From positions 74,067 to 138,066 of the forward strand of contig NZ_LN811354.1 of the NCBI RefSeq assembly GCF_001006805.1: a stretch of DNA of 64,000 nucleotides, written 5' to 3'. Shown piece by piece: positions 929 to 17,277 of the stretch (its first letter is position 1; the number at the start of each line of letters is the position of its first letter). A program made the translations under genes and the position numbers. Under the pieces are notes generated by a model. It made no database searches and was not told the DNA's origin. It worked only from the letters and a program-made list of their open reading frames with translations. The stretch comes from Microvirga massiliensis (GTDB taxonomy: Bacteria > Pseudomonadota > Alphaproteobacteria > Rhizobiales > Beijerinckiaceae).

Positions 929-2404
929 GTGACGGGAGAGCGTGCAACGATCCGCTTCTGGCGAAACGGCCGGCCGACGGAGGTGGACGGCTTCCACCCG
1001 CGGACGACGCTTCTCGATTACCTGCGCCTGTCTGAGCGGCAGGTCGGAACGAAGGAGGGCTGTGCCGAGGGTGATTGCGGCGCGTGCACGGTGGCGCTGG
1101 GCCGCGTCCGGGACGGGCGTCTCGTCTATGAGCCCGTCAATGCCTGCATCCTGCTCCTCGGCCAGATCGATGGCGCCGATCTCCTTACGATCGAGGATCT
1201 TGCGGGGGCAGGGGGGCTTCACCCGGTCCAGCAGGCCATGGTCGATCATCACGGATCGCAATGCGGCTTCTGCACGCCCGGGATCGTGATGAGCCTCTTC
1301 ACGCTCCATCGCGAGGCGCCGCGCCCCGTCGGCCGGGAGACCGTCAGCGATGCCCTCGCGGGCAATCTTTGCCGCTGCACGGGCTATCGTCCTATCGTCG
1401 ACGCGGCCTTGGCGGCCTGCAGCAGCGCTCCGGAGCCCCTGCCTGCCGATGCGCTCATCGCTCGGATGTCGGGAGCACGCGAGCAGGACGTTTTCGTCCG
1501 ACATCCCGACGGCTTCTTCGCTGCGCCGGCTTCCGAAGAGCGTCTGGCGGCGCTTCTCGTCGAGCACCCGGACGCAACGATCGTCTCCGGTTCGACCGAT
1601 GTCGGGCTCTGGATCACCAAGGGGCTTGCCCCGCTCTCGAAGATCGTCTGGCTCGGCCGGGTCAAAGGGCTCGATGCGATCGAGAATGAGCCGGATCGGC
1701 TGTTGCTCGGCGCCACGGTCTCCCACGCGACGGCGCTCCCGTTTCTCGCCGGGATCGATCCAGATCTTGGCGAGCTTATGCGCCGCTTCGGCTCCGTTCA
1801 GGTGCGGGCTTCCGGCACGGTCGGAGGCAACATCGCGAACGGTTCGCCGATCGGCGATCTCGCGCCGGCTCTGCTCGCGCTCGGCTGTCGTCTCGAACTG
1901 CGGCGTGGTGAGGCGCTGCGCCGGATCGCTCTCGAGGATTTCTTCATCGCCTATCGCCAGCAGGACCGGCAGCCGGGCGAGTTCCTGCGGCGCGTCGAGA
2001 TCGACAAGCTCTCGCCGAACGAGATATTCCGGTGCTTCAAGGTCTCGAAGCGTTTCGATGAGGACATCTCGGCCGTCATGGGTGCGTTCAAGTTCGCTCT
2101 CGATGGCCGCCGCATCGTTGGCTGCCGGATCGCCTATGGCGGCATGGCGGGCATCCCGAAGCGAGCCGCCGCGACGGAGCATGCCGTGACAGGTCTCTCG
2201 CTGGACGAGCCGACCCATTGGCGAAACGCGGAGGCAGCCCTCGAAGAGGACTTCCAGCCCATGAGAGATCATCGCGCCACGGCAGAGTACCGGAGAACCG
2301 TCGCGCGGAATCTTCTTCGTAAGGCATTGATGGAGATCGCTTCAGGCGAGACGGATGCGACGCGGATCACCGGGCACCGCCCCGTCCTGCAGGCGGCGGA
2401 GTAG
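929..2404 (+). CDS. xdhA: Xanthine dehydrogenase small subunit (FeS/FAD)
   Basis: XdhA carries the electron-transfer part of xanthine dehydrogenase, which oxidises hypoxanthine and xanthine to urate with NAD+. The N-terminal plant-type 2Fe-2S domain has Cys45, Cys50, Cys53 and Cys73. The second 2Fe-2S domain has QCGFC (Cys112, Cys115) and LCRCTGYRP (Cys148, Cys150). A FAD-binding domain follows from about residue 185 (VSGSTDVGLWITKG), then the CO-dehydrogenase flavoprotein C-terminal domain. Length 491 aa is normal. The start is a GTG at 929, right behind ggaggag; the overlapping ATG at 927 runs straight into TGA and cannot be used. First gene of the xdhA-xdhB-xdhC-guaD operon, three bases before xdhB. 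Confidence 0.95.
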   Translation: MTGERATIRFWRNGRPTEVDGFHPRTTLLDYLRLSERQVGTKEGCAEGDCGACTVALGRVRDGRLVYEPVNACILLLGQIDGADLLTIEDLAGAGGLHPVQQAMVDHHGSQCGFCTPGIVMSLFTLHREAPRPVGRETVSDALAGNLCRCTGYRPIVDAALAACSSAPEPLPADALIARMSGAREQDVFVRHPDGFFAAPASEERLAALLVEHPDATIVSGSTDVGLWITKGLAPLSKIVWLGRVKGLDAIENEPDRLLLGATVSHATALPFLAGIDPDLGELMRRFGSVQVRASGTVGGNIANGSPIGDLAPALLALGCRLELRRGEALRRIALEDFFIAYRQQDRQPGEFLRRVEIDKLSPNEIFRCFKVSKRFDEDISAVMGAFKFALDGRRIVGCRIAYGGMAGIPKRAAATEHAVTGLSLDEPTHWRNAEAALEEDFQPMRDHRATAEYRRTVARNLLRKALMEIASGETDATRITGHRPVLQAAE

Positions 2405-2407
2405 GCG

Positions 2408-4753
2408 ATGGACGACCTCGTGGTCCGACAAGGCGAAACAGCGCGTCGGAACGACGACACGGCAGAGGAAGTCCTGCGCCACGTGCGCAAGCCGATCCCG
2501 CACGACTCGGCCGTCAAGCACGTGCAGGGCGCGGCACGCTACATCGACGATCTTCCGGAGCCCGAGGGCACGCTCCACATCGCGATCGGCCAATCCCCGA
2601 AGGCGAGGGGCCGGCTCGTGTCACTGGACGTCTCGGCCGTACGCGCCATTCCGGGTGTCGCTGCGGTGCTGACGGCGGCCGATATCCCAGGCCCGAACGA
2701 TGTCTCGCCGACGCAAGGCGACGATCCTCTGTTCGCCGACGACGAGATTGCCTTTCACGGTCAGGCGCTGTTTGCCGTCATCGCGACCGATCGCGACGTC
2801 GCGCGCCGCGCCGTGAAGTTCGCGACGATCGAGATCGCTGCCGAACGGCCGAGCGTCACGGTCGAGGATGCCCTCGAGCGCGGAGAGACGGTGCTGCCGG
2901 ACTATGAGTTCGGACGCGGTGATCCGAAGGAGGCCATCGCCGCGGCGCCCCGCCAACTCTCCGGAAGCTTCCGGATCGGCGGCCAGGAGCACTTCTACCT
3001 CGAGGGCCAAGCTGCCTTCGCAATTCCCGGCGAGGACGGCGACCTCGTCGTCCATTCCTCCACCCAGCACCCGACCGAGGTGCAGCACGTCATCGCCCGC
3101 GTGCTCGATATCCCCGATGCGTTCGTGACCTGTGAGGTGCGCCGCATGGGCGGCGGTTTCGGAGGCAAGGAGAGCCAGGCGACTCAATGGGCCGTGACCG
3201 CGGCGCTCGCCGCGAAGGTGACGGGCCGTCCCTGCAAGATCCGTCTCGACCGCGACGATGATTTCATCCTCACCGGCAAGCGACATGACTTCCGGTGCGA
3301 CTGGCAGGTCGGTTTCGACGAAGAAGGGCGAATTGCAGGCTGTGCCGTGGAGCATCTCGCCCGCTGCGGGTATTCGGCGGATCTCTCGCAGGGCGTCGTC
3401 GACCGGACGATGTTTCATTCGGACAACGCGTATTTCCTGCCGGCCGTCCGAGTCTCGTCGCGCCGGCTCAAGACGAATACCGTGTCCAATACGGCTTTCC
3501 GGGGTTTCGGCGGGCCGCAGGGCATGCTCGCCATCGAGCATGTCATCGATCAGATCGCGTGGTCGACCGGGCGGGATCCGCTCGACGTGCGCCTCGCCAA
3601 TCTCTACGCGCCTGGGCGGAACATTACGCCCTACGGAATGGAGGTGGAGGAGACGGACACGCTGCGCGCGATCGTCGAGACGCTCGAGCACACATGCGAT
3701 TATCGCAAGCGCCGCAACGAAATCGCGGCGTTCAACGAAACGTCTCCCATCCTGCGCAAGGGCATTGCGCTGACGCCGGTGAAGTTCGGCATCAGCTTCA
3801 CGCTGACGCAGCTCAACCAGGCCGGTGCGCTGGTTCACGTCTATCAGGACGGCTCCGTCCACCTGAATCACGGCGGCACCGAGATGGGGCAGGGGCTCTA
3901 TACGAAGGTTGCCCAGGTCGTTGCGGAAGAGTTCGGGATCGGTCTCGAGCGCGTGCGCATCACCGCGACCTCGACCGGGAAGGTGCCCAACACCGCACCG
4001 ACGGCTGCGTCGTCGGGCTCCGATCTCAACGGGATGGCAGCCTGCAACGCGGCGCGCGCCATCAAGGCGCGCATGGCGGCCTTTGCTGCAGAGGAATTCG
4101 GGACGACACCCGATCAGGTCGAGTTCCGGGACGATCGCGTCTTCATCGGCAACGAGAGCCTGTCCTTCAGCGGCCTCGCGAAGCGCTGCGTGAACGGACG
4201 AGTGCAACTCTCGGAAGCCGGCTTCTACAAGACCCCGAAGATCACCTGGGACCGAGCGCGCGCGACCGGGCGGCCGTTCTTCTACTTCGCGTACGGCGCC
4301 GCCTGCAGCGAGGTGATCATCGACACGCTGACGGGCGAGAACCGGCTCCTGCGGGTCGACATTCTCCACGATGTTGGCCGCTCTCTCAATCCGGCACTCG
4401 ATATCGGTCAGATCGAGGGAGGCTTCGTGCAGGGAATGGGCTGGCTCACCACCGAAGAACTGGTCTTCGACGGTGAGGGGCGACTGCTCACGCACGCGCC
4501 CTCGACCTACAAGATCCCTGTTGCCTCGGATGTGCCGGCGGATCTGCGGGTGGTCCTGTTCCCGAATGCGAACCGCGAGGAGACGATCTATCGCTCGAAG
4601 GCGGTCGGCGAGCCGCCCCTGATGCTGGCCAACAGCGTGTTCTGCGCGATCGCCGATGCGATCCATTCGCTCGCGCCGGAGCGTCCGGTTCCCCTCTATG
4701 CGCCGGCGACCCCGGAAGCCATTCTGAGCGCCTGCGAACACGTGCGGGCCTGA
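2408..4753 (+). CDS. xdhB: Xanthine dehydrogenase large (molybdopterin) subunit
   Basis: Catalytic molybdenum subunit, 781 aa, partner of XdhA. Visible family signatures are the GGGFGGKES molybdopterin-binding loop near residue 250, the RGFGGPQG loop near 360, HGGTEMGQG near 490, and the C-terminal AVGEPPLML carrying the glutamate that acts as general base in this family. A split two-subunit enzyme is the usual bacterial XdhAB layout. It starts three bases after the xdhA stop and ends three bases before xdhC, so the three are co-transcribed and probably translationally coupled. Substrate is inferred as xanthine rather than another aldehyde or purine because xdhC and guaD follow. Confidence 0.95.
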   Translation: MDDLVVRQGETARRNDDTAEEVLRHVRKPIPHDSAVKHVQGAARYIDDLPEPEGTLHIAIGQSPKARGRLVSLDVSAVRAIPGVAAVLTAADIPGPNDVSPTQGDDPLFADDEIAFHGQALFAVIATDRDVARRAVKFATIEIAAERPSVTVEDALERGETVLPDYEFGRGDPKEAIAAAPRQLSGSFRIGGQEHFYLEGQAAFAIPGEDGDLVVHSSTQHPTEVQHVIARVLDIPDAFVTCEVRRMGGGFGGKESQATQWAVTAALAAKVTGRPCKIRLDRDDDFILTGKRHDFRCDWQVGFDEEGRIAGCAVEHLARCGYSADLSQGVVDRTMFHSDNAYFLPAVRVSSRRLKTNTVSNTAFRGFGGPQGMLAIEHVIDQIAWSTGRDPLDVRLANLYAPGRNITPYGMEVEETDTLRAIVETLEHTCDYRKRRNEIAAFNETSPILRKGIALTPVKFGISFTLTQLNQAGALVHVYQDGSVHLNHGGTEMGQGLYTKVAQVVAEEFGIGLERVRITATSTGKVPNTAPTAASSGSDLNGMAACNAARAIKARMAAFAAEEFGTTPDQVEFRDDRVFIGNESLSFSGLAKRCVNGRVQLSEAGFYKTPKITWDRARATGRPFFYFAYGAACSEVIIDTLTGENRLLRVDILHDVGRSLNPALDIGQIEGGFVQGMGWLTTEELVFDGEGRLLTHAPSTYKIPVASDVPADLRVVLFPNANREETIYRSKAVGEPPLMLANSVFCAIADAIHSLAPERPVPLYAPATPEAILSACEHVRA

Positions 4754-4756
4754 GCT

Positions 4757-5728
4757 TTGCGCATCTGGGCACGACTCCGCGAGATGATCTCTGCAGGCGA
4801 TGTCGCGGCGCTCGTCACCGTGCATCGCGTGCAGGGCTCGGCTCCGCGGGAGACGGATGCCCGGATGGCGGCGCGCGCGGACGGCAGCCTGTCCGGGACG
4901 ATTGGCGGCGGCGCGCTCGAATGGGATGCGCTGCGTGAAGCCCGACGCCTCATCGCAGCCGGGCGCGGCCCCGCCGTCACGATCGAGCGGATCCTGGGTC
5001 CCGACCTCGGCCAGTGCTGCGGTGGACGGGTGTCGCTCCTGATAGAGACCTTCGATCGTCGCGATCTGCCGGAACTCACCGCCTTCGCGAACCGCGAGAG
5101 GGGAGGCGCATTCGAGATGCTGTGCCGGCGGGGCTCCGACGGACGCATCCATCGCACGATCGCACCCGGGCCATCGGCCGTTTCGGAGCCGGACGTCTGG
5201 TGCGAGCACCACGGCATGGCTCATACGCCTGTGCTTCTCTTCGGAGCCGGGCATGTCGGGCGCGCGATCGTGCTCGCCCTCGCGCCGTTGCCGTTCGACA
5301 TCGCCTGGATCGATAGCCGCGAGGGCGCGTTCCCGACGCACATTCCTGCCAATGCAACGCCGATCCTTGCACCAAATCCCGTCTCGGAACTGTCCCGCGC
5401 AGTGGCCGACGCATTCGCGCTCATCATGACGCATGAGCATGCTCTCGATCTCGTCATCACGGCAGCGGCCCTCCAGGGCCCATTCCCGTTCGTCGGCCTG
5501 ATCGGCAGCGACACGAAGCGAGCCCGTTTCGAGCGGCGCTTCCGCGAACTCGGGATTCCAAAGGAGAGGATCGAGGCTCTCCATTGTCCGATCGGATTGC
5601 CCACCATCCACGGCAAGCAGCCCGCAATCATCGCTGCGTCGGTCGCGGCTCAGATCCTGGCCGAAAGCGAGCGATTGACGAAGGCCGCTGCGCATCACCA
5701 TTCCACACGGGCTGGAGGCTCTCCATGA
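4757..5728 (+). CDS. xdhC: Xanthine dehydrogenase accessory protein XdhC
   Basis: XdhC binds the molybdenum cofactor, helps sulfurate it and delivers it to XdhB. The 323-aa protein has the XdhC N-terminal motifs GTIGGGALEWDAL and GQCCGGRVSLLIE and a Rossmann domain beginning LLFGAGHVGRAI near residue 160, followed by GLIGSDTKRARFERR and GLPTIHGKQPAIIA. The start taken is TTG at 4757, three bases behind xdhB; an ATG at 4784 is the alternative and would remove nine residues. Its stop overlaps the next gene's start (ATGA), which supports coupling with guaD. Confidence 0.92.
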   Translation: MRIWARLREMISAGDVAALVTVHRVQGSAPRETDARMAARADGSLSGTIGGGALEWDALREARRLIAAGRGPAVTIERILGPDLGQCCGGRVSLLIETFDRRDLPELTAFANRERGGAFEMLCRRGSDGRIHRTIAPGPSAVSEPDVWCEHHGMAHTPVLLFGAGHVGRAIVLALAPLPFDIAWIDSREGAFPTHIPANATPILAPNPVSELSRAVADAFALIMTHEHALDLVITAAALQGPFPFVGLIGSDTKRARFERRFRELGIPKERIEALHCPIGLPTIHGKQPAIIAASVAAQILAESERLTKAAAHHHSTRAGGSP

Positions 5729-6210
5729 CGCAATTGACTCCCGAGGAGTCTCGTTTCCTCGCGCGCGCCGTCGCGCTCTCGCGCAAGCACATGCATCAGG
5801 GCGCCGGCGGACCGTTCGGCGCCATCATCGTTCGCGATGGCAAAGTGCTTGCAGAAGGCTGGAACGAAGTCACTTCCACCAACGATCCGACCGCACATGC
5901 GGAGATCAATGCGATTCGCAAGGCCTGCCGGCAGATCGGCGATTTCTCGCTGTCGGGTGCGACGCTCTACACGAGCTGCGAGCCCTGCCCGATGTGCCTT
6001 GCGGCGGCCTACTGGGCACGAGTCGATCGCATCGTCTATGCGAACACCCGTATCCATGCCGCAGTCATTGGTTTCGACGACCAGCACATCTATGACGAGG
6101 TTGCGCGGGAGCCGGGTGATCGAGAGATTCCGATGCTGCACGTGCCGAGCGAAGAGGCGCGAGCCGTCTTCGAGGAGTGGCTCGGCAAGGCGGATCGGGT
6201 CGAGTACTGA
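5725..6210 (+). CDS. guaD: Guanine deaminase, CDA-fold type
   Basis: Zinc deaminase of the cytidine-deaminase fold, 161 aa, predicted to convert guanine to xanthine, the substrate of the preceding enzyme. Zinc ligands and the proton-shuttle glutamate are His58 and Glu60 (TAHAEINAIRKA) and Cys88/Cys91 (SCEPCPMCLAA). The residues around them (GGPFGAIIV, NDPTAHAE, YWARVDRIVYAN, GFDDQHIYDE) match the Bacillus GuaD subgroup more closely than tRNA adenosine or cytosine deaminases. The ATG at 5725 overlaps the xdhC stop; a longer frame from 5584 would overlap xdhC by 145 bases and is rejected. Position in the xdh operon makes a purine role very likely. Confidence 0.9.
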   Translation: MTQLTPEESRFLARAVALSRKHMHQGAGGPFGAIIVRDGKVLAEGWNEVTSTNDPTAHAEINAIRKACRQIGDFSLSGATLYTSCEPCPMCLAAAYWARVDRIVYANTRIHAAVIGFDDQHIYDEVAREPGDREIPMLHVPSEEARAVFEEWLGKADRVEY

Positions 6211-6394
6211 CCCGGGTCCGGCGATGTCGAAGGCCACAAGCTCTCGCGTGGCCGGCTTCCAGACCGGGGCCGGGGCGACCATATCGTCCCCGAACGGGTG
6301 GCCGGCGGGCACTCAACGGTGCTACCGGTGCCCAACACTCATTCCTGTCTGACAGGCCGGCACCGCTCTGGGTTGCCGGCTTCGGAGATTTGTC

Positions 6395-6988
6395 ATGCTT
6401 CGTGCCACTGCCGTCGTCCGCAAGCCCGCCGTCCGGGCCGATCGTGTCGCCGATACGGTGACGCTCCACCACGAGGGCCGCCAGAGCCGCGGGGTCGTGC
6501 TCAAAGGCGAAGGCGGCCTCGAGTTCCTTCTGGATCTAGACAAGGCCACGGCGCTGAAGGATGGCGATGCCGTGAAGCTCGAGGATGGACGCCTCGTCCG
6601 AGTCCAGGCCGCGCTCCAGCCTCTCCTGGAGGTCAAGGCCGAGAATCCCCTTCGCCTGATGCGGGTCGCGTATCAGATCGGCAACCGTCATGCGGCAGCG
6701 GAAGTGACGGCGGAGGCGCTCTATATCGAGGACGATGCCGCTCTCGCCGAACTCGTTCGCGGACAGGGGTGCACCGCGACGCGGATCATGCGCCCCTTTC
6801 AGCCGGAGCGCATAGACGAGCATGATTGCGGGCACGATCATCATCACCATCACGACCATAGCCATGATCATAACGGTCACGTGCACGATCACGCCGGACA
6901 TGACCACGGTCATACTCACGCCCATGATCATGCCCACGAGCCGGAGCACCGGCATGGGCCCGGCTGCAAACATCATCATGGGCATTGA
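6395..6988 (+). CDS. ureE: Urease accessory protein UreE with histidine-rich tail
   Basis: UreE is the nickel metallochaperone that hands Ni(II) to the UreDFG-apourease complex. The N-terminal domain (about residues 10-75) and the C-terminal ferredoxin-like domain (about 80-140) are present, including YQIGNRHAAAEV with the conserved interface histidine His99. From about residue 143 to the end the protein is a Ni-binding tail with about 26 histidines in 55 residues plus Cys145 and Cys191. Unusually, no other urease gene (ureABC, ureD, ureF, ureG) lies in the 64-kb window. It stands 184 bases behind guaD, so a link between purine breakdown and urea use is plausible but inferred. Length 197 aa is long because of the tail. 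Confidence 0.93.
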   Translation: MLRATAVVRKPAVRADRVADTVTLHHEGRQSRGVVLKGEGGLEFLLDLDKATALKDGDAVKLEDGRLVRVQAALQPLLEVKAENPLRLMRVAYQIGNRHAAAEVTAEALYIEDDAALAELVRGQGCTATRIMRPFQPERIDEHDCGHDHHHHHDHSHDHNGHVHDHAGHDHGHTHAHDHAHEPEHRHGPGCKHHHGH

Positions 6989-8822: not shown

Positions 8823-11800
8823 TCATTTCCGGATCTGCCCCGAATCCAGGGTCGCTATCGCGGCTGCAGCCGCGATAGCGACTGCGTCGGCACCTTGCTC
8901 TCTCGCAGTCGTGAGTGCGCGGTTCAGCAAATCGCGCCGATCGGATGTCGCCTCCGAAGCGAGCAATCGTGCGTGTTGCAGCAGCAGCTCTGGGAGGAAC
9001 CCATACGCTTCCAAAGTCAACGCTACATCCGCTGCTTCCCTCATCGCAGCCTCGGCTGCATCAACTTCACCGAGCGCGGTCTCGGCCTCGGCAAGCAGCG
9101 ATAGGATCAGAGGACGCAGAAGTTCGCCCTGTGTTTCTCGATAGCTCGCCAGTCCTCGTCGAATTTTCTCCCGCCCGGCGGCAGCATTGCAGGCACGCGC
9201 AACCTGATCGTAGCCAATTGCGACTTCACTTAGCGCGACCCAATAGGCGAACCCCTTCTCAGCTGCGACTGCAAGCGCTCTCCTTGCCAGTTGAAGGGCC
9301 TTATTCAATTGTCCCGCACGTTGAAGCGCGAAGGCTGGCAGAACGAAGCCGTAGCAAGCGCTGACGGGATGCGGTGATGCTCGCGCCGCTTCTGCGGCCA
9401 TCCGTGCCCGTCGTGCTGCTGCCTCGATGCCGCGCCTTGGAGTATCCAGCCAGCAGAGATTGGCGAGCGCCAGAACACGCGGATCTTGCCCTGCAACGGC
9501 GATGTATTGTTCCTGCCTTGCGGGATCCATGGTCGCTAGAGCTCGCTCGAGGTCTTCCTCCGCTTCGATCAGCCGTCCCATGCAGACGCGATTCCAGCCC
9601 CGCCTCCTCCACGCATCGACGAGCATGCGATCATCGCCCATATGTTCGGCCATGGCGACGAGCGTGCCGCATATTGCTTCGGCACGCGACAGTGGGCCGC
9701 GGACTTGGTAGAAGGATGCCAACCCCTGAAATGCCGGCAAGGTCCGCGCCTGCGTGGGGACGCGTTCGGCTATCTTCAGGGCTGCCGCAAAAGCCTCCTG
9801 TACGGCAGCGTTCGCGTAACCCCGTCGAGCAATCAGAATCTGTCCCATGAGGACTCGAAGATCGAGTTCCGCTTCCGGCGCCTGCGTCGCCGGCAAGGCC
9901 TGGATGGCTTGCAGTCCACGGCGGACCTGAGACTCGGCCTCCTCGAGAGCAGCCGCTGCGAGCGCGCGGCGGCCTGCAGAAAAGTAGAGCGGCAACGCAG
10001 CTGAATAATTCTCACCCAGAAAATAATGCTCGGCTACGACCTCGGGCCGGCGTTCCACGAGGCCGGGCCGCATGACCTCGAGCAGGTTTGCCGCGCGGGC
10101 ATGGAGTGCCCGCCGACTGGCGAGCAGAATAGACTCGCTCGCTGCCTGTTGCAGGAGGGCGTGACGAAAGCCGTAGGCGGGCGCAGGCAATGCCGTGACT
10201 CGGACGAGTATCTCCGCGTCGATCAGCCGTGAAAGCCACCGCTCGAGGATAGTGTCCGGCACCTCGGCGAGGGCCGCCAGCAGATCGGGCTCCAGATACG
10301 GATCGATGATTGCGGCGCATTGTGCGAGGCGCTTCGCGTCCCCAAGGCTGTCGAGACGCGCAGTGAACAGCTGCTGAAGGGTTCGCGGCACGGTCGTGAC
10401 AACCGCAGCACGGGCGAATTCCTCGAGGAAGAGTGGCACGCCGTCCGATCGCGCCAGGATCATCTCGCGGGTTGCAGCCGTGCGGTCATGCAGGAGCGCG
10501 TCGAGCAGTCGTGCCGAATCCGAGCGCTCGAGCGCAGAGAGCGTGAGCCGAAAAGTAGTCGGGCGATCGGGCCAGGACAGCACGAAATCGCTGCGATAGG
10601 TTGCCAACAGCATGACCGGTCGATTCGAGATGAGTTCGGTTATGCCGTGAAGAAGTTCGAGCAACGAGGGGTCCGCCCAATGCAAGTCCTCGGCCAGAAT
10701 CAGTAATGGCTGACCGTGAGCATGATGGAGCAACCAAGCTTGCAGCGTTTGCAGCAGCAGCCGTCGGCGCGCGGCCGGCGCAAGATCGCCTGGCCCGGGT
10801 CCGATGCCGAGCGCTTCCTGTAACACTTGCAGCGTATGACCATCGTTAAGCCCGATTGCTTCGACGATCTCGGCAAGCACCTGCACAGGACTACGGGTAG
10901 CGCCATTTCCCTCAACCCCTACGGTCAAAGCATGACGCAATGCTTCGATCGCCGGATAGAAGGCGGTGGTCGCAGTGGGAGGGGTACAGGCAAGCACGAC
11001 CAGTGCATGCGGCACTCCCGCAATGGAATTCAGAAGCTCTTGGGCAAGTCGCGACTTTCCAACCCCTGCCTCACCCGACACGAGAGCCGTCTGCCCATGT
11101 CCCTCAGCGGCTACTTTCCAGAGCTTGGACAAAGCCTTGAGCTCGTTGGCACGGCCGACGAACGGCGCTCGACGAGGCCGGGCAAGCACCAATTGACCAC
11201 TGTTTGTGACAGCCGGTTGACGGACAGCAAACGCTCGCACTGAAGGCTGCAGGCGTGCAAGGCGCTGCAGTGGTATTTCTTCGCACGCGAATTCGTCGGC
11301 TACGAGTTCGTGAGTGGCCTCACCAATGATGACTCCATTGGGAGCTGCAAGCTCCTGCAATCGAGCGGCTATGTTGGGTGCAGTGCCGACAAGACCGTCG
11401 ATTTCCATCGCATGATCGGAGCCCAGCCGCCCAGCCAGCACGATGCCGGTCTCTATGCCGATGCGGACCGCGAGTTCCATGTTCTTTGGAAGCGGAGTGG
11501 AGCGGGCCAGTTCATGCACCTCTCGGGCGATCGCCAGACCACAAGCGACGGCAGCCTGAGCATCGCGATCGACGGCTCGTGGATATCCGAAACACGCAAG
11601 CACACCGTCGCCGGCGTAGCGCACGACGTAACCTCCATATCTTGTCACCGCAGCCACGCACCGGTCCCGGTATGCGACCAGCATCGCGGCGAACTCCTCC
11701 GGATCCAGTTGTGCAGCCAGGGCGCTCGAGCCAACGAGGTCGCAGAATATTACCGTCAGGAGACGGCGCTCGGCGCCTCCGGTCAAAGGCACGCTGCCAC

Positions 11801-12017
11801 TCTGCGTTGCAGCCGTGGTGCCAAGTGGGGCGCCACATTTCGTGCAGAATCGCTGGCTGGGTGAGGCGGGGGCGGCACAAACGGGGCAGAATCGCGGTAG
11901 AGCCGCGCCGCACTGACCACAGAACCGGGCACCGGCTTCTACGGAAGCTTGGCAGGCCGGGCAGAATCCAGCAACTTCAGATCCGGTTCCGGCCGGGTTA
12001 CCTGACGAGGATGTCAT
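8823..12017 (-). CDS. Zinc-ribbon/class III cyclase/AAA ATPase/TPR signalling protein
   Basis: Large multidomain protein of 1064 aa. Two zinc ribbons open it (Cys19, 22, 33, 36 and Cys44, 47, 58, 61). A class III nucleotide cyclase domain spans about residues 83-250, with metal-binding aspartates at Asp93 (FCDLVGSS) and Asp137 (RYAGDGVL) and PNIAARLQ bearing the transition-state Asn and Arg. The lysine usual before AGDG is Arg here, so ATP versus GTP is uncertain. An AAA/STAND-type ATPase follows (Walker A GEAGVGKSRL, Walker B LILAEDLHWAD), then a long helical TPR region to the end. No signal peptide or membrane segment. The start could be ATG 12017 or GTG 12026; neither has a good ribosome site. 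Divergent from the radical SAM cassette. Confidence 0.85.
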   Translation of the reverse strand: MTSSSGNPAGTGSEVAGFCPACQASVEAGARFCGQCGAALPRFCPVCAAPASPSQRFCTKCGAPLGTTAATQSGSVPLTGGAERRLLTVIFCDLVGSSALAAQLDPEEFAAMLVAYRDRCVAAVTRYGGYVVRYAGDGVLACFGYPRAVDRDAQAAVACGLAIAREVHELARSTPLPKNMELAVRIGIETGIVLAGRLGSDHAMEIDGLVGTAPNIAARLQELAAPNGVIIGEATHELVADEFACEEIPLQRLARLQPSVRAFAVRQPAVTNSGQLVLARPRRAPFVGRANELKALSKLWKVAAEGHGQTALVSGEAGVGKSRLAQELLNSIAGVPHALVVLACTPPTATTAFYPAIEALRHALTVGVEGNGATRSPVQVLAEIVEAIGLNDGHTLQVLQEALGIGPGPGDLAPAARRRLLLQTLQAWLLHHAHGQPLLILAEDLHWADPSLLELLHGITELISNRPVMLLATYRSDFVLSWPDRPTTFRLTLSALERSDSARLLDALLHDRTAATREMILARSDGVPLFLEEFARAAVVTTVPRTLQQLFTARLDSLGDAKRLAQCAAIIDPYLEPDLLAALAEVPDTILERWLSRLIDAEILVRVTALPAPAYGFRHALLQQAASESILLASRRALHARAANLLEVMRPGLVERRPEVVAEHYFLGENYSAALPLYFSAGRRALAAAALEEAESQVRRGLQAIQALPATQAPEAELDLRVLMGQILIARRGYANAAVQEAFAAALKIAERVPTQARTLPAFQGLASFYQVRGPLSRAEAICGTLVAMAEHMGDDRMLVDAWRRRGWNRVCMGRLIEAEEDLERALATMDPARQEQYIAVAGQDPRVLALANLCWLDTPRRGIEAAARRARMAAEAARASPHPVSACYGFVLPAFALQRAGQLNKALQLARRALAVAAEKGFAYWVALSEVAIGYDQVARACNAAAGREKIRRGLASYRETQGELLRPLILSLLAEAETALGEVDAAEAAMREAADVALTLEAYGFLPELLLQHARLLASEATSDRRDLLNRALTTAREQGADAVAIAAAAAIATLDSGQIRK

Positions 12018-12136
12018 CGAAAACACAAGGCTGATAGAACATGGCTCAATCGAGAAAGCTATGCTATAGTTTTACTGTTCTTGGTTCCTCAGTGTGGCGT
12101 GAGCAGGCCCTCATGACAACGATGAGGTAACGGCTG
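12018..12136. promoter_or_regulatory. Divergent intergenic region, cyclase gene / radical SAM cassette
   Basis: This 119-base gap separates two divergent genes and is visibly richer in A/T than its surroundings (about 12050-12090). A TATAGT hexamer at 12065-12070 could be a -10 element for the rightward cassette, but no good -35 partner is seen. The sequence gaggtaa at about 12124-12130 is the Shine-Dalgarno for the radical SAM start at 12137. A five-codon frame (ATG 12113 to TAA) precedes it. Both promoters must lie here or inside the flanking 5' ends. Confidence 0.35.
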
Positions 12137-13141
12137 ATGTGTCCGGCCCTAAAAAGTCCACCCAAGATGACTTTGGGGCTGACCGAGGCGTGCCCTTTGC
12201 AATGCCGCTATTGCTATTCGGACTGCGGATCGGAGCCGAAACCCGGGGAATTGGACATCGCGGAGTGGAAGCGATTCATCGACGAGGTCGTCGATGACGG
12301 CGTGATCCAATTTTATATCGAAGGCGGCGAGCCTCTCCTGAAGCCTGGTCTACTCGACCTGTTGGCATACTGCGCCCGAGACGCGATGACGATGCTGCGC
12401 AGCCATGGCACGCTCATCGATGGAGCGATGGCTGATGCGCTCAAGAAGACGGGCCTTGGACGGATCTTCATCGACCTGATGGGGGCTACTGCCGAGACGC
12501 ATGACGGCTGTGCAGGTGTCCCGGGCAGCTTCGAGGCGGCCTGTAACGGGATCAGCCATTGTGTCGCCCATGGCATTCCCGTCGACATGCTGGTGATCCT
12601 GACGCGTCAGATCGTCCCCGAGCTCAATGCTCTGCTGCAGCTTGCAGCGGCTCTCGGTGCGGACCGTGTCGGCGTTCTGCGGCTTTATCCACTCGGACGC
12701 GCAAAGAAGCTCTGGCCCGAGATTGCGCTTTCACTGGACGAGCAGATGGCTGCCATCCGTAGCCTTCGGCCACCACCAGGCCTCGCCGTCATGCAGTCCT
12801 GGCATCCGATGGACAAGAATTGCTGCTGGCAGGCTGCTGCGGTGGATGCATTCGGCCGAGCGATCGGATGCATGTACCTTCGCGAATACGTGGATTTTGG
12901 AAGCATCGGCACATCCCGATACCTCGATATCTGGCGTGGTCACCCACTTTACCGCAATCTGCGCTCAGGACGTGTCGAGCGAGGGTGCCCGGATTGCTCG
13001 GCCAGCCAGGGTACCAGGGGAGGTTGCCGCTCGACGGCTTTCGCATTTCACGGACGCTGGACTGCGCCCGATCCCTTCGACGAAACGCTGAATGACGGGA
13101 TAGACCTCCTTGCACTGCCCGAAAGAATACTTCGCTCTTGA
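12137..13141 (+). CDS. Radical SAM enzyme with SPASM-like domain (peptide maturase type)
   Basis: Radical SAM protein of 334 aa. The 4Fe-4S cluster cysteines are Cys19, Cys23 and Cys26 (ACPLQCRYCY) and the SAM-contacting GGEP is at 63-66. A SPASM/twitch-like cysteine set follows in the C-terminal third: Cys229/230, Cys245 (AIGCMYLRE), Cys284/287 (GCPDC) and Cys297. The final DPxC cysteine of canonical SPASM is missing (DPFDE). The fold and the PqqD-like gene directly behind it are typical of enzymes that modify ribosomally made peptides or proteins, as PqqE does. The ATG follows gaggtaa. No short precursor gene lies between it and its neighbours, so the substrate is unknown. Confidence 0.88.
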   Translation: MCPALKSPPKMTLGLTEACPLQCRYCYSDCGSEPKPGELDIAEWKRFIDEVVDDGVIQFYIEGGEPLLKPGLLDLLAYCARDAMTMLRSHGTLIDGAMADALKKTGLGRIFIDLMGATAETHDGCAGVPGSFEAACNGISHCVAHGIPVDMLVILTRQIVPELNALLQLAAALGADRVGVLRLYPLGRAKKLWPEIALSLDEQMAAIRSLRPPPGLAVMQSWHPMDKNCCWQAAAVDAFGRAIGCMYLREYVDFGSIGTSRYLDIWRGHPLYRNLRSGRVERGCPDCSASQGTRGGCRSTAFAFHGRWTAPDPFDETLNDGIDLLALPERILRS

Positions 13142-13148
13142 GTCTAGC

Positions 13149-13403
13149 GTGAGGTTGAGGCCTGTGCCCGAAATGGGTGTCTGTCTGGCCTACACTCCAG
13201 GGCAACCAGCTCTGCATCGTCTCAACACTGCAAGTTGGCTGATCGTCAGTCTTTGTGATGGCCGCTCGGTGGAGGACATTGCGAGCGCCTATCGTGAGGC
13301 GCTCGCCGGAAATGCGGGAACCGACGAGGCATTTCGCCAAGGCCTGGAGGAACTTCTGGCCCTTGGCATCATCCGGCGGGTTACTCCGCCGGCGGTTGCG
13401 TAA
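13149..13403 (+). CDS. PqqD-like peptide chaperone (RRE domain)
   Basis: Small protein of 84 aa with the PqqD pattern: an N-terminal beta hairpin (RLRPVPEMGVCLAY, then ALHRLNTASWLIVSLCDG) followed by a winged-helix-like helical part (VEDIASAYREAL, GLEELLALGIIRRV). PqqD-like domains bind the leader of a precursor peptide and present it to the radical SAM enzyme. The start is uncertain: GTG at 13149, seven bases behind the radical SAM stop, fits the family start, while TTG at 13110 would give 97 aa and a 32-base overlap. Either way the two genes are tightly coupled. Confidence 0.78.
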   Translation: MRLRPVPEMGVCLAYTPGQPALHRLNTASWLIVSLCDGRSVEDIASAYREALAGNAGTDEAFRQGLEELLALGIIRRVTPPAVA

Positions 13404-13437
13404 GCACGATCGACCCCAAGGACAGGAGCTCTGATCC

Positions 13438-14064
13438 ATGACGGACAAACGGATTACGCCACCACCCGCGCCGCTCTTGAGTTCCGAGACGGCAGCACCG
13501 CAGGCGAAGACGCTTGTCGCGGAATTGCGCACGGATGCGTCACTGGACTTCGATCCACAGGCAGCGCCTCAATACCTCAATATTGTTAATGCGCGTTTCG
13601 GGGCCCTCGTCGCGTGGCGCGTAGATCTGTCCTGGAGCGATGCTCAGCTGGTTCAGCTCTGGTTGACCGGAGCTCCTGCAGGCGGCGCCTACCCGACCCG
13701 CGAAGAGGCACTCAAGGACTTCTTCGAGACCTTGCCGGACCCGAACGGTAACGTATTTCTCGAGTATCTCGGCACCTATCTCGCTACGGGCCTATCCCAC
13801 GCCTCATATACCATGATCGTCGGCATGCGCTCTCCTGTGCCACGAGACGATTACAAAAAGGCATTTACGGACGCTCTGAATGCCTTGCGGCAAGCTATCG
13901 GTCCGTCGGGGTGGTATGCAGAACTCGTCGATTTCATGAAGATCATGCTCAACCAGCCGACCAGCCGAGAGGAGTTCCTCACTCTGGCGAGCAATGAGGG
14001 CGATCTCGCCAGGAATGTCGGTGGGCAGCCTGCCTATCCCTTAATTCAGATACTCATTACCTGA
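13438..14064 (+). CDS. Protein of unknown family in the radical SAM cassette
   Basis: I do not recognise this 208-aa protein. It has no signal peptide, no membrane segment and no cysteine. The first 25 residues are proline- and alanine-rich (TPPPAPLLSSETAAPQ) and look disordered; the rest is a mixed, aromatic-rich globular sequence with three Trp and several Tyr and Phe. Its ATG sits behind acaggagc, 34 bases after the PqqD-like gene, and its stop is 12 bases before the protease start, so it is an integral member of the cassette. It could be the protein substrate of the radical SAM enzyme, an adaptor or an inhibitor of the protease; none of these can be shown from sequence. Confidence 0.75.
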   Translation: MTDKRITPPPAPLLSSETAAPQAKTLVAELRTDASLDFDPQAAPQYLNIVNARFGALVAWRVDLSWSDAQLVQLWLTGAPAGGAYPTREEALKDFFETLPDPNGNVFLEYLGTYLATGLSHASYTMIVGMRSPVPRDDYKKAFTDALNALRQAIGPSGWYAELVDFMKIMLNQPTSREEFLTLASNEGDLARNVGGQPAYPLIQILIT

Positions 14065-14076
14065 CCTGTAACCAGG

Positions 14077-17000
14077 ATGCCGAACCGAGAGAACGGAATT
14101 CCGCGCCGTCCTCCGCCTGCTCCGAGCACCGGTCGCAAACCCCAGGTTGGCATGTCACCGGCCCCGGAAGGACGGCAACGCGCGATTATCGGCGCTCGGC
14201 TCGCTTTTCTGGTGTGGCTGTTCGAGAAAGGCTCGGCATTACCTGCCCTGGTTGAGCAGGAGCAGGATCTGTGGCGCCGGGAGCTGAATGCTCAGCAAAG
14301 CCGCTTTCAGCGCCTTCTCGGGAGGGTAGCGGTGGCACCGGCGCCGCATATTCCCTCGCCGCTCACTGCCGCCGTGCGTCTGAGACCTGCCGAGGACCGC
14401 GTTCTCAATCTCAGTTTCGAATCGATCCGACGCATCGATCCGACCGGCCGCGCGATTTTCGACCCTGCTCGCCCGGCGGTGGCGGTCAGCATCGAGTTCC
14501 TGGGCAGTCGCTCGGATCTGCTTCCGCTCGGCGTTATCCCGGCAGCTCAAGCTGGGGACGTCTTCTTCGGCTGGGTAAACCTGCATAGCGTATCGGCGCT
14601 GGCGAAGAATCCAGCGGTTCTTCGGATTGATGCGCTGCGCACCTGGACGCCGGCAGCAGGCGGCTCGATAAGTGCGGGGAATACAACGTCTGGTGGAGGC
14701 GGTGGCTCCGAGACCGGCGCAGGGGTCAGGCTGGCCGTCATTGATCTCGGATTCGATTTCCTCCATCCCGCCTTTCTGCAGCCGATAGGAGCGTCCGAGG
14801 AGGTCCGGACCCTCTGGCTGCATGATTTTGCTCTCGCGCCGGCGGCAAGCGCGCCGGCAGGTTCCATTGGGCGACGCTTCACCGGTAGTGATCTCCAGAA
14901 TGCGCTCCTTTGGTACGAGGCTTCTTCATCGAGTCCGAAGCCGGAGGTCATCGCTACCCACATTCAGCGCCTGAAGGATGCACTGGGAAATCCCGAATAC
15001 CGTACCCTGGTTCAGCAGCACGGGACGGGGACCGCCGGCATTGCTGCGGGGAACGGGCATTCGTCTTCACCTCTTCCAAGCGGGCCTGCACCTGTGCCGG
15101 GCGTTGCGCCGGATGCCGATCTTCTTTTCCTCGCGATCGGAGGACATGACGAGAAGCGTTTTGCGGACTCGCTCGATGTACACAGCGCTTTCGCGGCAGC
15201 TTTCGAAGGTCAAACCGCCGCTTGCGTTGCCCTTATGGCCAACAGTGACAATCTTGGTCCGCACGATGGCACGCTCGGCGGAGAGGAGGCACTAGACGAT
15301 CTGCTGCTTCTGCCCGGTCGTGCGATCGTGCTCTCTGCCGGTAACCTGAACCACACACCGGGTGCACCGCCGACATTTCCAGCTTGGCACGCCGCCGCGC
15401 TGATCGGTTCCGGTGCGGCACCGCCGTTGCCTCTCGTGCTGCGGTTCGACAGCGGAGCCTCCTGGCCCGACTGTGCGGAGATCTGGTTCCGTCCTCCCGC
15501 CAATACCGCTGCGAGCGCCACGATCGCGATCAAGATTCGGAACAATCCCGTCGGGCAGCCCATACCGGTTTCAATCACCGCGCAACCCGTCACGATTCTC
15601 ACTCCGGCCGATAACCCCTTGGACGGCACCACCGTTGTCGCGCAGCTTGGCTGGTATCAGGAGGCCGATGCCTATTGCTTGAGCCTCATTTTCCAGCCTG
15701 CTCCGTCGCGCGAGATCGTGCGGTCGGAATGGAGCATCACCGTTCCTGCAGATGGACCGGTGCACGGCTGGCTCGATCGGAACAATGAAGGCGCCGGCCG
15801 CTGGACGGGCCCGACCGCACAAGCGGGTGCGAATGCCACAACGCTCGGTTCACCGGCGGTCGCGATCCGACCGCTCACGGTAGGTTCGATCCAGAGCGCC
15901 CAAGGAACTCCCTCGAGCTTCAGCGGTCGCGGGCCCATCCGGGCGACCCTCAACGCGCCGCACAAGCCGGATCTTGTGGCTATCGGGGAAGGCGTCGTCG
16001 GCCCGCGTGGTGTGCCTGCAGACCGCTGGAATCATCTGCCGTCTTCCGGTCCCTACCGCACGTTCGACCCGCCGGGAACGAGCTATTCGGCGCCTCAAGT
16101 CGCCGGCGCATGCGCCCTCCTGTTCGAGCGCTTTGGCGCCGCTGCCACTTGGGCAGATATTCGGCAGGCTATTCTGCAGGCTGCGGTGCGAACCTCGAAC
16201 ATGCCCATGGCCGGGTCGGACGGCTGGGACAACGCCTGCGGCTATGGGATGCTGGATCTCAATTTGCTGAAATCTCCTCCCATGCCCGTTATGGCCGACC
16301 TGTGGCTGCCGAAAGCAGAGGAGGATACTGGTGCGGAACCGTTCGTCGCTCCGGTCTTCTGGAACAGTCCGGCTCTGGCGCTGGAGGATGCACAGGGTCG
16401 CGCTCTCGACGCGACCCATGTGGCAGTCGGGGAGGCCATTCCCGCCCGATTGCGTGTGAAGGTCAAGAACCGCGGTGCTCAGCCTGCGCGAAATCCCGAC
16501 ATATCCGTGTGGTGGGCACCCCTCGGTGCAGTCCACCCCTTACCTCAGTCGCGCGAAGGTGGCGGGGCCTGGCAGGCTGATGGGTTCAGTGTAGAGGACC
16601 GCAATACCAACTCACAACGGGTGACAGATCTCGACCCCGGCCAATCCATGGATGTTATCTTCAACTGGATACCGCCACGCGATACGGAGGGCAGGGTCAT
16701 ACCTCACGTCCTCATTGCTACGGTCGGCAACGAGGTAGATCCCTTCGATCCTGATGATACGCTCTGTGCGCAGAACAATGCGGCCGCACTCGACATCGCC
16801 GCAGCGCGGAGCGGGACATTCGCTACTTTCAACATCATCGGTTCACGCGATATCGACGGTGTAACCATCCGCTCGGAAGCCCCGGAGGGACGAATCCTCA
16901 TCGAGGAAATGCCCATCAGCGCGCTACCATGGCGAGACAGCCAAATGTTCGCCGAGGCTGGCCGCAGCGAACGCCCTCTTTACGGGTCTGACGACGAGGT

Positions 17001-17277
17001 GGGAGACATGGCCGCCACGCTGGAGGCGAGCCTGGAGGGGCAGGAAAATATTCAGACCGTGACTGAAGCACTGGGTGTGGAGAGCCTGAAGCTCGCGAAT
17101 GGACTCGCGACGATCGAGGGGCGCGGCAGCGTCACCTTGCGGCGTCTGCGAATTGCTCCGGGAGCTCGGCTGGCTCTGAAAGTGGCAGTCGAACATGAAA
17201 TGGGGGACGCGCTACACATGCTGCACCTGAGCGGCGGACGGCGTGTCGGGGGCGGAACCGTGCGCATTTTGGGCTGA
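14077..17277 (+). CDS. S8 family (subtilisin-like) serine peptidase, large
   Basis: Subtilase of 1066 aa. The catalytic triad reads as Asp223 (AVIDLGFDF), His315 (QQHGTGTAGIAAG) and Ser669 (GTSYSAPQVAG). The His-Ser distance is unusually long, with an inserted beta-rich region of about 150 residues. Upstream lies an N-terminal region of about 215 residues ending in a GGGGGS-rich linker, which may act as propeptide. Behind the catalytic domain, about 790-910 resembles a CARDB-type beta-sandwich (ARLRVKVKNRGAQPARNPDI), followed by an acidic tail. No signal peptide is visible, so it is either cytoplasmic or exported by an unrecognised route. Last gene of the cassette, 12 bases behind the unknown 208-aa gene. 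Confidence 0.9.
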   Translation: MPNRENGIPRRPPPAPSTGRKPQVGMSPAPEGRQRAIIGARLAFLVWLFEKGSALPALVEQEQDLWRRELNAQQSRFQRLLGRVAVAPAPHIPSPLTAAVRLRPAEDRVLNLSFESIRRIDPTGRAIFDPARPAVAVSIEFLGSRSDLLPLGVIPAAQAGDVFFGWVNLHSVSALAKNPAVLRIDALRTWTPAAGGSISAGNTTSGGGGGSETGAGVRLAVIDLGFDFLHPAFLQPIGASEEVRTLWLHDFALAPAASAPAGSIGRRFTGSDLQNALLWYEASSSSPKPEVIATHIQRLKDALGNPEYRTLVQQHGTGTAGIAAGNGHSSSPLPSGPAPVPGVAPDADLLFLAIGGHDEKRFADSLDVHSAFAAAFEGQTAACVALMANSDNLGPHDGTLGGEEALDDLLLLPGRAIVLSAGNLNHTPGAPPTFPAWHAAALIGSGAAPPLPLVLRFDSGASWPDCAEIWFRPPANTAASATIAIKIRNNPVGQPIPVSITAQPVTILTPADNPLDGTTVVAQLGWYQEADAYCLSLIFQPAPSREIVRSEWSITVPADGPVHGWLDRNNEGAGRWTGPTAQAGANATTLGSPAVAIRPLTVGSIQSAQGTPSSFSGRGPIRATLNAPHKPDLVAIGEGVVGPRGVPADRWNHLPSSGPYRTFDPPGTSYSAPQVAGACALLFERFGAAATWADIRQAILQAAVRTSNMPMAGSDGWDNACGYGMLDLNLLKSPPMPVMADLWLPKAEEDTGAEPFVAPVFWNSPALALEDAQGRALDATHVAVGEAIPARLRVKVKNRGAQPARNPDISVWWAPLGAVHPLPQSREGGGAWQADGFSVEDRNTNSQRVTDLDPGQSMDVIFNWIPPRDTEGRVIPHVLIATVGNEVDPFDPDDTLCAQNNAAALDIAAARSGTFATFNIIGSRDIDGVTIRSEAPEGRILIEEMPISALPWRDSQMFAEAGRSERPLYGSDDEVGDMAATLEASLEGQENIQTVTEALGVESLKLANGLATIEGRGSVTLRRLRIAPGARLALKVAVEHEMGDALHMLHLSGGRRVGGGTVRILG

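Follow-up and report, generated by a model that had tools for sequence, protein, structure and literature searches.

A conserved radical SAM, PqqD-like and third-protein gene set

We analysed a stretch of 64,000 nucleotides (hereafter the window) from the 9.17 Mb genome of Microvirga massiliensis (contig NZ_LN811354.1, positions 74,067 to 138,066 of the forward strand), in which a cassette on the forward strand codes for a radical S-adenosylmethionine (SAM)/SPASM enzyme of 334 residues (12137..13141), a PqqD-like protein of up to 97 residues (13110..13403), a third protein of 208 residues that we propose to be a precursor-like substrate (13438..14064), and a large S8 subtilase of 1066 residues (14077..17277). 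Upstream, on the reverse strand and divergent from the cassette, lies a gene for a 1067-residue protein with Pfam matches to zinc-ribbon, class III nucleotide cyclase, AAA_16 and TPR domains (8823..12026). A sequence-only reading of this DNA had placed four genes here, described them as the toolkit of a pathway for a ribosomally synthesised and post-translationally modified peptide (RiPP) or for protein maturation, and named the 208-residue protein or the protease as possible substrate. Its gene calls were borne out by open reading frames (ORFs) at 12137-13141, 13438-14064 and 14077-17277, together with the PqqD-like frame. The cyclase gene, and the disordered tail, tail motif and NIPSNAP-like domain of the third protein, are all additions to that account.

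The cassette was compared across 22 loci, the window included, most of which were selected via their radical SAM gene. All 22 keep homologues of the radical SAM enzyme, the PqqD-like protein and the third protein, in this order and on one strand, which argues against a chance grouping. The grouping of four genes into one cassette stands for this trio and is not supported for the protease, which was recognised in 7 of the 22 loci; more loci have the trio without a recognised protease than with one. The opposite arrangement, a third protein and protease lacking the radical SAM/PqqD pair, was not seen, though searches with the third protein were limited. Protein distances of the radical SAM enzyme and the third protein rise together across loci (r 0.97 for 20 loci and 0.83 for 12 dereplicated loci, reached by none of 5000 permutations). 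The corresponding values for radical SAM enzyme and cyclase are 0.83 and, dereplicated, 0.63, and the weakest correlation is that of the PqqD-like protein with the cyclase (0.51 after dereplication, a value that 8 of 5000 permutations reach).

A conserved tail motif ahead of a predicted NIPSNAP-like domain

The third proteins are highly divergent, with identities to the window protein of 15-45%, and the 22 sequences can be aligned over a short N-terminal part, a motif and a C-terminal domain, with P21, R31, L76, E89, Y110, G112 and T113 invariant. The window protein matched nothing in Pfam, NCBIfam, PHROGs or PADLOC at E<=1; five other third proteins gave at most weak Pfam rows and reached no cut-off in Pfam or NCBIfam, and sequence searches of solved structures with the third protein returned no credible match. 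The tail motif, [EQ][VLI]R[TS]x5[FILVMYW], ends in a hydrophobic residue and is present in 21 of the 22 proteins, the tail of the remaining one (L043) reading VIRSGDQLFF, one position off the pattern. In the window this proposed core motif is ELRTDASLDF, at residues 29-38 (13522..13551, forward strand). Across the 323,114 ORF residues of the compared loci, third proteins counted in, the pattern matches 38 times. The nine homologues from genus g44 (L054-L062) also conserve CDL[LI]KH after the motif, a feature not seen in the other lineages.

Structural models were generated with AlphaFold2 for the window protein and for the homologue from L009, with a mean predicted local distance difference test score (pLDDT) of 72.6 and 75.4, respectively. 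Both models show a low-confidence tail that carries the motif, followed by a confident beta-alpha-beta-beta-alpha-beta domain; in the window model pLDDT is below 50 over residues 26-38, which cover the motif, and the L009 model predicts an N-terminal helix at residues 5-16. Structural comparison with VIA-align placed a NIPSNAP protein at the top for both the window model (Z 8.7, root-mean-square deviation 3.4, 102 aligned residues) and the L009 model (Z 10.1, root-mean-square deviation 3.8, 100 aligned). Antibiotic biosynthesis monooxygenase (ABM) rows tie with it, lying within 1 Z of NIPSNAP for the L009 model, and other dimeric ferredoxin-like proteins score close behind, some within 1 Z. 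NIPSNAP sequence models matched none of the six third proteins scanned out of 22 (the window protein at E<=1, five others at E<=5), and Foldseek alone found no match to the window model at E<=0.001. Six matches to viral structure models at E<=0.001 all had a TM-score below 0.5 and were not used. Judged by these models, what the domain (residues 55-188; 13600..14001, forward strand) shares with NIPSNAP and ABM proteins is the dimeric alpha+beta (ferredoxin-like) fold, not family membership by sequence.

Repeated cores and constraint on the tail

The third protein of L015 is longer, at 297 residues, and in it a 13-residue core with the motif, VNQQVRTSMSVP[FY], occurs five times at a spacing of 28-30 residues, while the C-terminal domain is single. 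Between any two copies of the core there are 4-9 synonymous codon differences and 0-1 residue changes, and this silent drift suggests that selection has probably kept each copy. In its sequence, the L015 protein thus looks like a multi-core substrate under selection.

For the nine g44 homologues we counted residue-changing and silent codon differences (raw pairwise counts, uncorrected for rates, from pairs that are not independent). The ratio was 86/166 = 0.52 over the 17 residues of the motif region, 0.82 and 0.77 in the two stretches before the motif, 1103/1093 = 1.01 in the folded domain and 251/73 = 3.4 in the linker. The motif segment, modelled with low confidence, is nevertheless more constrained than the folded domain.

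These observations bear on the possibility that the third protein serves as a NIPSNAP/ABM-like scaffold or partner enzyme, with the true substrate coming from another place in the genome. The genes for RiPP substrates can lie apart from those for their enzymes, and the folded domain does resemble monooxygenases and related enzymes. However, such a role leaves unexplained both why a disordered motif segment should be more constrained than the domain and why the tail core alone should be repeated five-fold, and we regard it as unlikely.

The sequence-only reading had also remarked that no short precursor gene is visible, and this was upheld for the stretches surveyed, in that no small-ORF family of its own was found there across lineages. 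We collected 441 small ORFs of 18-90 residues from 14 of the 22 loci, taking ORFs of at least 18 residues from the stretch just before the radical SAM gene, the junction of the PqqD-like and third genes, and the 1.5 kb past the third gene; among them there was no independent cross-lineage precursor family. Those small ORFs that did match between loci were antisense or overlapping frames, or ends of the radical SAM or third genes. Upstream frames of L009 and L013 gave one match (E 2.8e-5), which lies in the cyclase region and was taken as an overlapping frame rather than a precursor. The missing precursor is most likely the 208-residue protein itself, a candidacy that the sequence-only reading had raised and that the repeated core of L015 strengthens.

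The radical SAM/SPASM enzyme and its PqqD-like partner

In the window, the radical SAM protein matches the Pfam models Radical_SAM (PF04055, 69.5 bits against a cut-off of 29.5) and SPASM (PF13186, 27.1 bits against 21.5). C19, C23 and C26 of a CxxxCxxC motif, together with C230, C245, C284 and C297, are invariant in the 21 or 22 sequences with a residue at these positions, the L043 sequence being cut off at its start. Its closest solved relative is PqqE (E 1.5e-28, aligned over profile positions 7-317 of 336), and it reached no NCBIfam cut-off among the best 25 of 71 models. The radical SAM protein of L062 (gene 9329-10372) holds ELRSEEWARF, which fits the third-protein motif.

The PqqD-like protein is a putative RiPP recognition element acting in trans (trans-RRE). 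The window protein scores 20.9 bits with PF05402 (cut-off 23.4), and 8 of 11 family members match this model at E<=0.1, the best at 4e-5. Its frame is open from TTG 13110, and a GTG at 13149 corresponds to the 7-base gap given earlier for this junction. Upstream of this GTG, P4, Y7, E11 and S13 are common to the window frame and the L005 protein, modest evidence that the gene may start at TTG 13110 and so overlap the radical SAM gene by 32 bases. Elsewhere in the window's genome, contig C7 (L001, L002) has two further PqqD matches over the cut-off, in frames of 253 and 402 residues; this genome-wide family search over cut-off did not report the PqqD-like gene of the window.

Proteases are accessory to the cassette

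The window subtilase matches Peptidase_S8 (PF00082, 95.7 bits) and has His and Ser catalytic motifs. To recognise proteases in the other loci we used phmmer with the window protease, together with patterns for S8, HExxH, GDSGGP and a Clp-like motif, on ORFs of at least 100 residues (L043 is cut off upstream). Only L005 and L008 among the other 21 loci have homologues of the window protease at a phmmer E<=1e-3, both after the third gene. In L015 and L019, other S8 genes stand upstream of that for the radical SAM enzyme; with the window protease as query, tblastn reaches the L015 one weakly (E 5.5e-4) and phmmer at 1e-3 does not. An M4-like protein (PF02868, 35.4 bits) is encoded in L010, and a metzincin-like protein with HEIGH (PF01457, 16.5 bits, below the cut-off of 21) in L011. 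S8 proteases thus adjoin five cassettes and M4 and metzincin-like proteins one each, while no protease was recognised beside 15 of 22 by phmmer and these simple patterns, which other types may escape. The protease is the least conserved part of the cassette. Its presence in a minority of loci, as three peptidase classes in two positions relative to the cassette, marks it as accessory and probably recruited more than once.

The L008 subtilase homologue is split over overlapping frames (12270-13409 and 13388-15559, forward strand), by a frameshift or an assembly error. Several further pattern matches were left uncounted because visual inspection placed them at a distance, on the antisense strand or in another frame (L010 5613-6545; L011 1-1290; L013 2851-6078; L019 4719-7052; L015 1834-2280, 13868-15253 and 17237-18457).

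The sequence-only reading had offered, as its alternative, that the large protease is what the radical SAM enzyme matures. The window protease does contain EVRTLWLHDF, which fits the tail motif, but neither the S8 proteins of L005, L008, L015 and L019 nor the M4 and metzincin-like ones contain such a match, and most cassettes have no recognised protease to mature. With its motif match confined to the window protease, the protease was rejected as substrate, a role that we now consider very improbable, and its standing as a core member was given up as well.

A nucleotide cyclase protein beside the cassette

Of the 21 loci that could be assessed, 20, the window among them, encode a homologue of the cyclase/AAA/TPR protein upstream of the radical SAM gene; it is absent from L015, and L043 could not be assessed as its contig ends there. 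The gene is divergent in 17 loci and on the same strand in three (L011, L060 and L061), so that the neighbourhood is kept though orientation varies. Simple cyclase or ATPase motif patterns were not all matched in L010 and L054-L061. The window protein scores 406.3 bits with TIGR03903, the model for the kinase/cyclase fusion of thiazole/oxazole-modified microcin (TOMM) loci, against a cut-off of 705.75. Proteins of the cyclase/AAA/TPR type are common in these bacteria, and a role as sensor or regulator of the cassette is plausible.

A proposed route of maturation

Four computed features, namely the conserved gene set, the tail motif, the repeated core and the predicted fold, lead us to consider it probable that the cassette is a RiPP-like protein-maturation system in which the 208-residue protein is the substrate, with its core ahead of the folded domain. 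The PqqD-like protein would present the flexible N-terminal tail to the radical SAM/SPASM enzyme. Since PqqE is the closest solved relative of this enzyme and PqqD serves PqqE, the PqqD-like protein would by analogy bind the tail, perhaps via an N-terminal helix such as that predicted at residues 5-16 in L009. The enzyme would then alter a conserved site at or near the Arg-Thr/Ser of [EQ][VLI]R[TS]x5[hydrophobic]. Many tails have no cysteine and the residue after the motif is not always aromatic, so neither cyclophane nor thioether chemistry fits every member. A core placed before a folded NIPSNAP-like domain would reverse the usual RiPP order, in which the leader comes first and the core is C-terminal. 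In some lineages the adjacent protease could release or trim the tail; in others the tail could stay on the protein, or an enzyme encoded elsewhere could cut it. The cyclase/AAA/TPR protein could plausibly act as a sensor or regulator.

A number of points weigh against this reading. The motif pattern was defined after inspection of the sequences, shuffling the third proteins still produced it in 50 of 4400 sequences, and the window protease and the L062 radical SAM protein each hold one match. The conserved motif could, moreover, be a PqqD-binding sequence rather than the modified site. The repeat of the core was found in one locus only, and the distance correlations carry no control for species relatedness. 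The window's PqqD-like protein falls below the Pfam cut-off, PF05402 misses 3 of 11 family members at E<=0.1, and no solved PqqD is recovered when the sequences of solved structures are searched with a family profile. Modification of the tail, its target residue, delivery by the PqqD-like protein and the roles of protease and cyclase are all steps that we infer.

One branch of the proposal differs in the fate of the tail. Here the modified tail would never be released and would serve the NIPSNAP-like domain as an internal cofactor derived from a peptide, or as a functional crosslink, in the manner of the quinone cofactors that act inside the small subunit of quinohemoprotein amine dehydrogenase (QHNDH). 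The 15 cassettes with no recognised adjacent protease favour retention, as do the NIPSNAP/ABM-like fold, whose matched entries include monooxygenases and haem degraders, and the invariance of Y110, G112 and T113 in the domain. Against it, the five-fold core of L015 is easier to understand as released peptides or a multivalent tail than as one cofactor per active site, and proteases of three classes do adjoin 7 of 22 cassettes. We hold retention to be possible, if on balance doubtful. More tentative, and in our view rather unlikely, is its fuller form, in which PqqD-guided changes at Arg-Thr/Ser, at one or several sites (five in L015), yield a modified NIPSNAP-like protein that keeps its tail as a cofactor or signal under the control of the cyclase sensor.

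Relation to known maturation systems

We read the cassette as a radical SAM/PqqD maturation system built from known enzyme types, whose substrate layout is unfamiliar and whose partner gene is uncommon. In QHNDH maturation (QhpD/QhpE), a radical SAM enzyme modifies a protein rather than a free peptide and a protease is encoded nearby. The present cassette differs in that its protease is not conserved and its third protein, with no Pfam match at E<=1, matches no QHNDH subunit. Like the PqqE/PqqD system of PQQ biosynthesis, which acts on PqqA, it pairs a radical SAM/SPASM enzyme with a separate PqqD-like protein; PqqD is the trans-RRE for PqqE (PMC8326336). The likeness stops short of identity: the cassette enzyme scores 102.5 bits with the PqqE model TIGR02109 against an equivalog cut-off of 381.35, and PqqA is a short peptide, whereas the substrate proposed here is a 208-residue protein with a folded C-terminal domain. 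The top NCBIfam radical SAM models for the enzyme, among the best 25 of 71, are mycofactocin MftC and the tetrapyrrole enzymes AhbD/NirJ, and it lies far under their cut-offs (MftC, TIGR03962, 123.2 against 265 bits; AhbD, 130.7 against 500; NirJ2, 121.7 against 500).

The follower of bottromycin-type precursors is a peptide, and the enzyme set is different. The core of such precursors precedes an accessory follower part (PMC10885120); the cassette would share this order, its follower being a whole NIPSNAP-like domain served by a radical SAM/PqqD pair. In proteusins a structured protein is the substrate and a disordered segment guides the enzyme (PMC10858898). The folded part of a proteusin precursor is the N-terminal leader, whereas in the cassette protein the N-terminus would hold the core, with the folded domain after it. 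The similarity of the divergent cyclase protein to the TOMM kinase/cyclase fusion is likewise partial, as its residues 76-1058 match the later part of TIGR03903 only, from model position 274, and below the cut-off. Some ATP-grasp RiPP loci are reported to combine adenylate cyclases with SPASM enzymes of the radical SAM type (PMC8939145), a precedent for a cyclase encoded next to a radical SAM enzyme that modifies peptides; the window cassette differs in having no ATP-grasp gene by Pfam, its radical SAM/PqqD-like pair standing beside the cyclase gene. Among the matches listed in the open-licence literature searched, no description of the cassette was found.

If the proposal is right, precursor searches that consider only short ORFs beside radical SAM/PqqD pairs will miss folded-protein substrates with cores in their tails. 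The cassette would then represent a compact, testable three-gene system with a reaction at a conserved Arg-Thr/Ser site, for which L015 supplies a natural five-core version suited to counting modifications, and it would link a maturation cassette to a nucleotide-cyclase protein.

Distribution of the cassette and neighbouring genes

A search of 298 genomes of the window's family with the 208-residue protein returned, apart from the query itself, a single weak relative (genome G037), beside which stand the same radical SAM and PqqD-like genes; used alone, the 208-residue protein found no relative in genome contigs and none in plasmids. Of 72,556 plasmid records, two other third proteins matched just one, the plasmid of Microvirga ossetica. 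The radical SAM gene reached further. A two-row alignment recovered 8 loci in genome contigs (105 pattern-matched stretches), and the plasmid search matched 70 records, in which NZ_CP016618.1 of M. ossetica stands out at 52.7% identity, the others being at about 30% or less among the best 30 of 70. No match was found in the viral contigs scanned with the radical SAM alignment.

An 11-row radical SAM profile was then applied at E<=1e-70 (E<=1e-60 for the phylum and g44 searches) to genome samples that overlap and in most of which the best few candidates per genome were scored. Within the class it recovered 2 of 385 genomes, within the family 3 of 397 and within the phylum 3 of 398, each count including the window's own genome. 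Further matches came from 2 of 146 genomes in the genus of G680 (both seeds), 4 of 75 in the family of G685 (three seeds and G964) and 9 of 265 in genus g44, two of them known before; searches around G391 recovered the seed alone (2 and 1 genomes covered). A third-protein profile built from 11 loci, tested on the ORFs of the compared loci alone, matched each of the 11 other loci at 34.3-74.9 bits, nine of these being the close g44 relatives. One third-protein gene was found in each of the 12 genomes or records searched, three extra rows in G686 being repeats within the same gene.

The cassette has a patchy distribution, in scattered proteobacteria. The radical SAM proteins of the window and M. 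ossetica are only about 53% identical although both come from one genus, which suggests that the cassette has been transferred. The window and L016, which belong to one genus, carry distant versions of it, one with and one without a recognised protease.

Patchiness, and the integrase-like gene that adjoins the cassette in L009, would also suit an anti-phage defence or conflict system made of a cyclase/STAND protein and a protease, to be compared with IetAS and Pycsar, in which radical SAM modification would arm an effector. Matches in PADLOC point the same way for the S8 protein ('subtilase', E 2e-18; IetS, best 4.3e-8), the cyclase (PycC, best 6.1e-20) and the radical SAM protein (viperin, best 3.1e-9). 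These matches, however, cover only shared superfamily domains, and the S8 protein is missing from most loci; we think a defence function distinctly improbable.

Two genes near cassettes fit mobility: the integrase-like gene (Arm-DNA-bind_3; 12140-13528, forward strand) after the L009 cassette and an IS6 transposase (3424-4122, reverse strand) near that of L016. Upstream of the cassette in the window, ORFs at 929-6988 on the forward strand match xanthine dehydrogenase subunits, XdhC, a cytidine-deaminase-type protein and UreE. In L016 and L012 the cassette has molybdopterin hydroxylase genes within 10 kb, and L015 has an ORF similar to UreE, a proximity that is possibly a coincidence.

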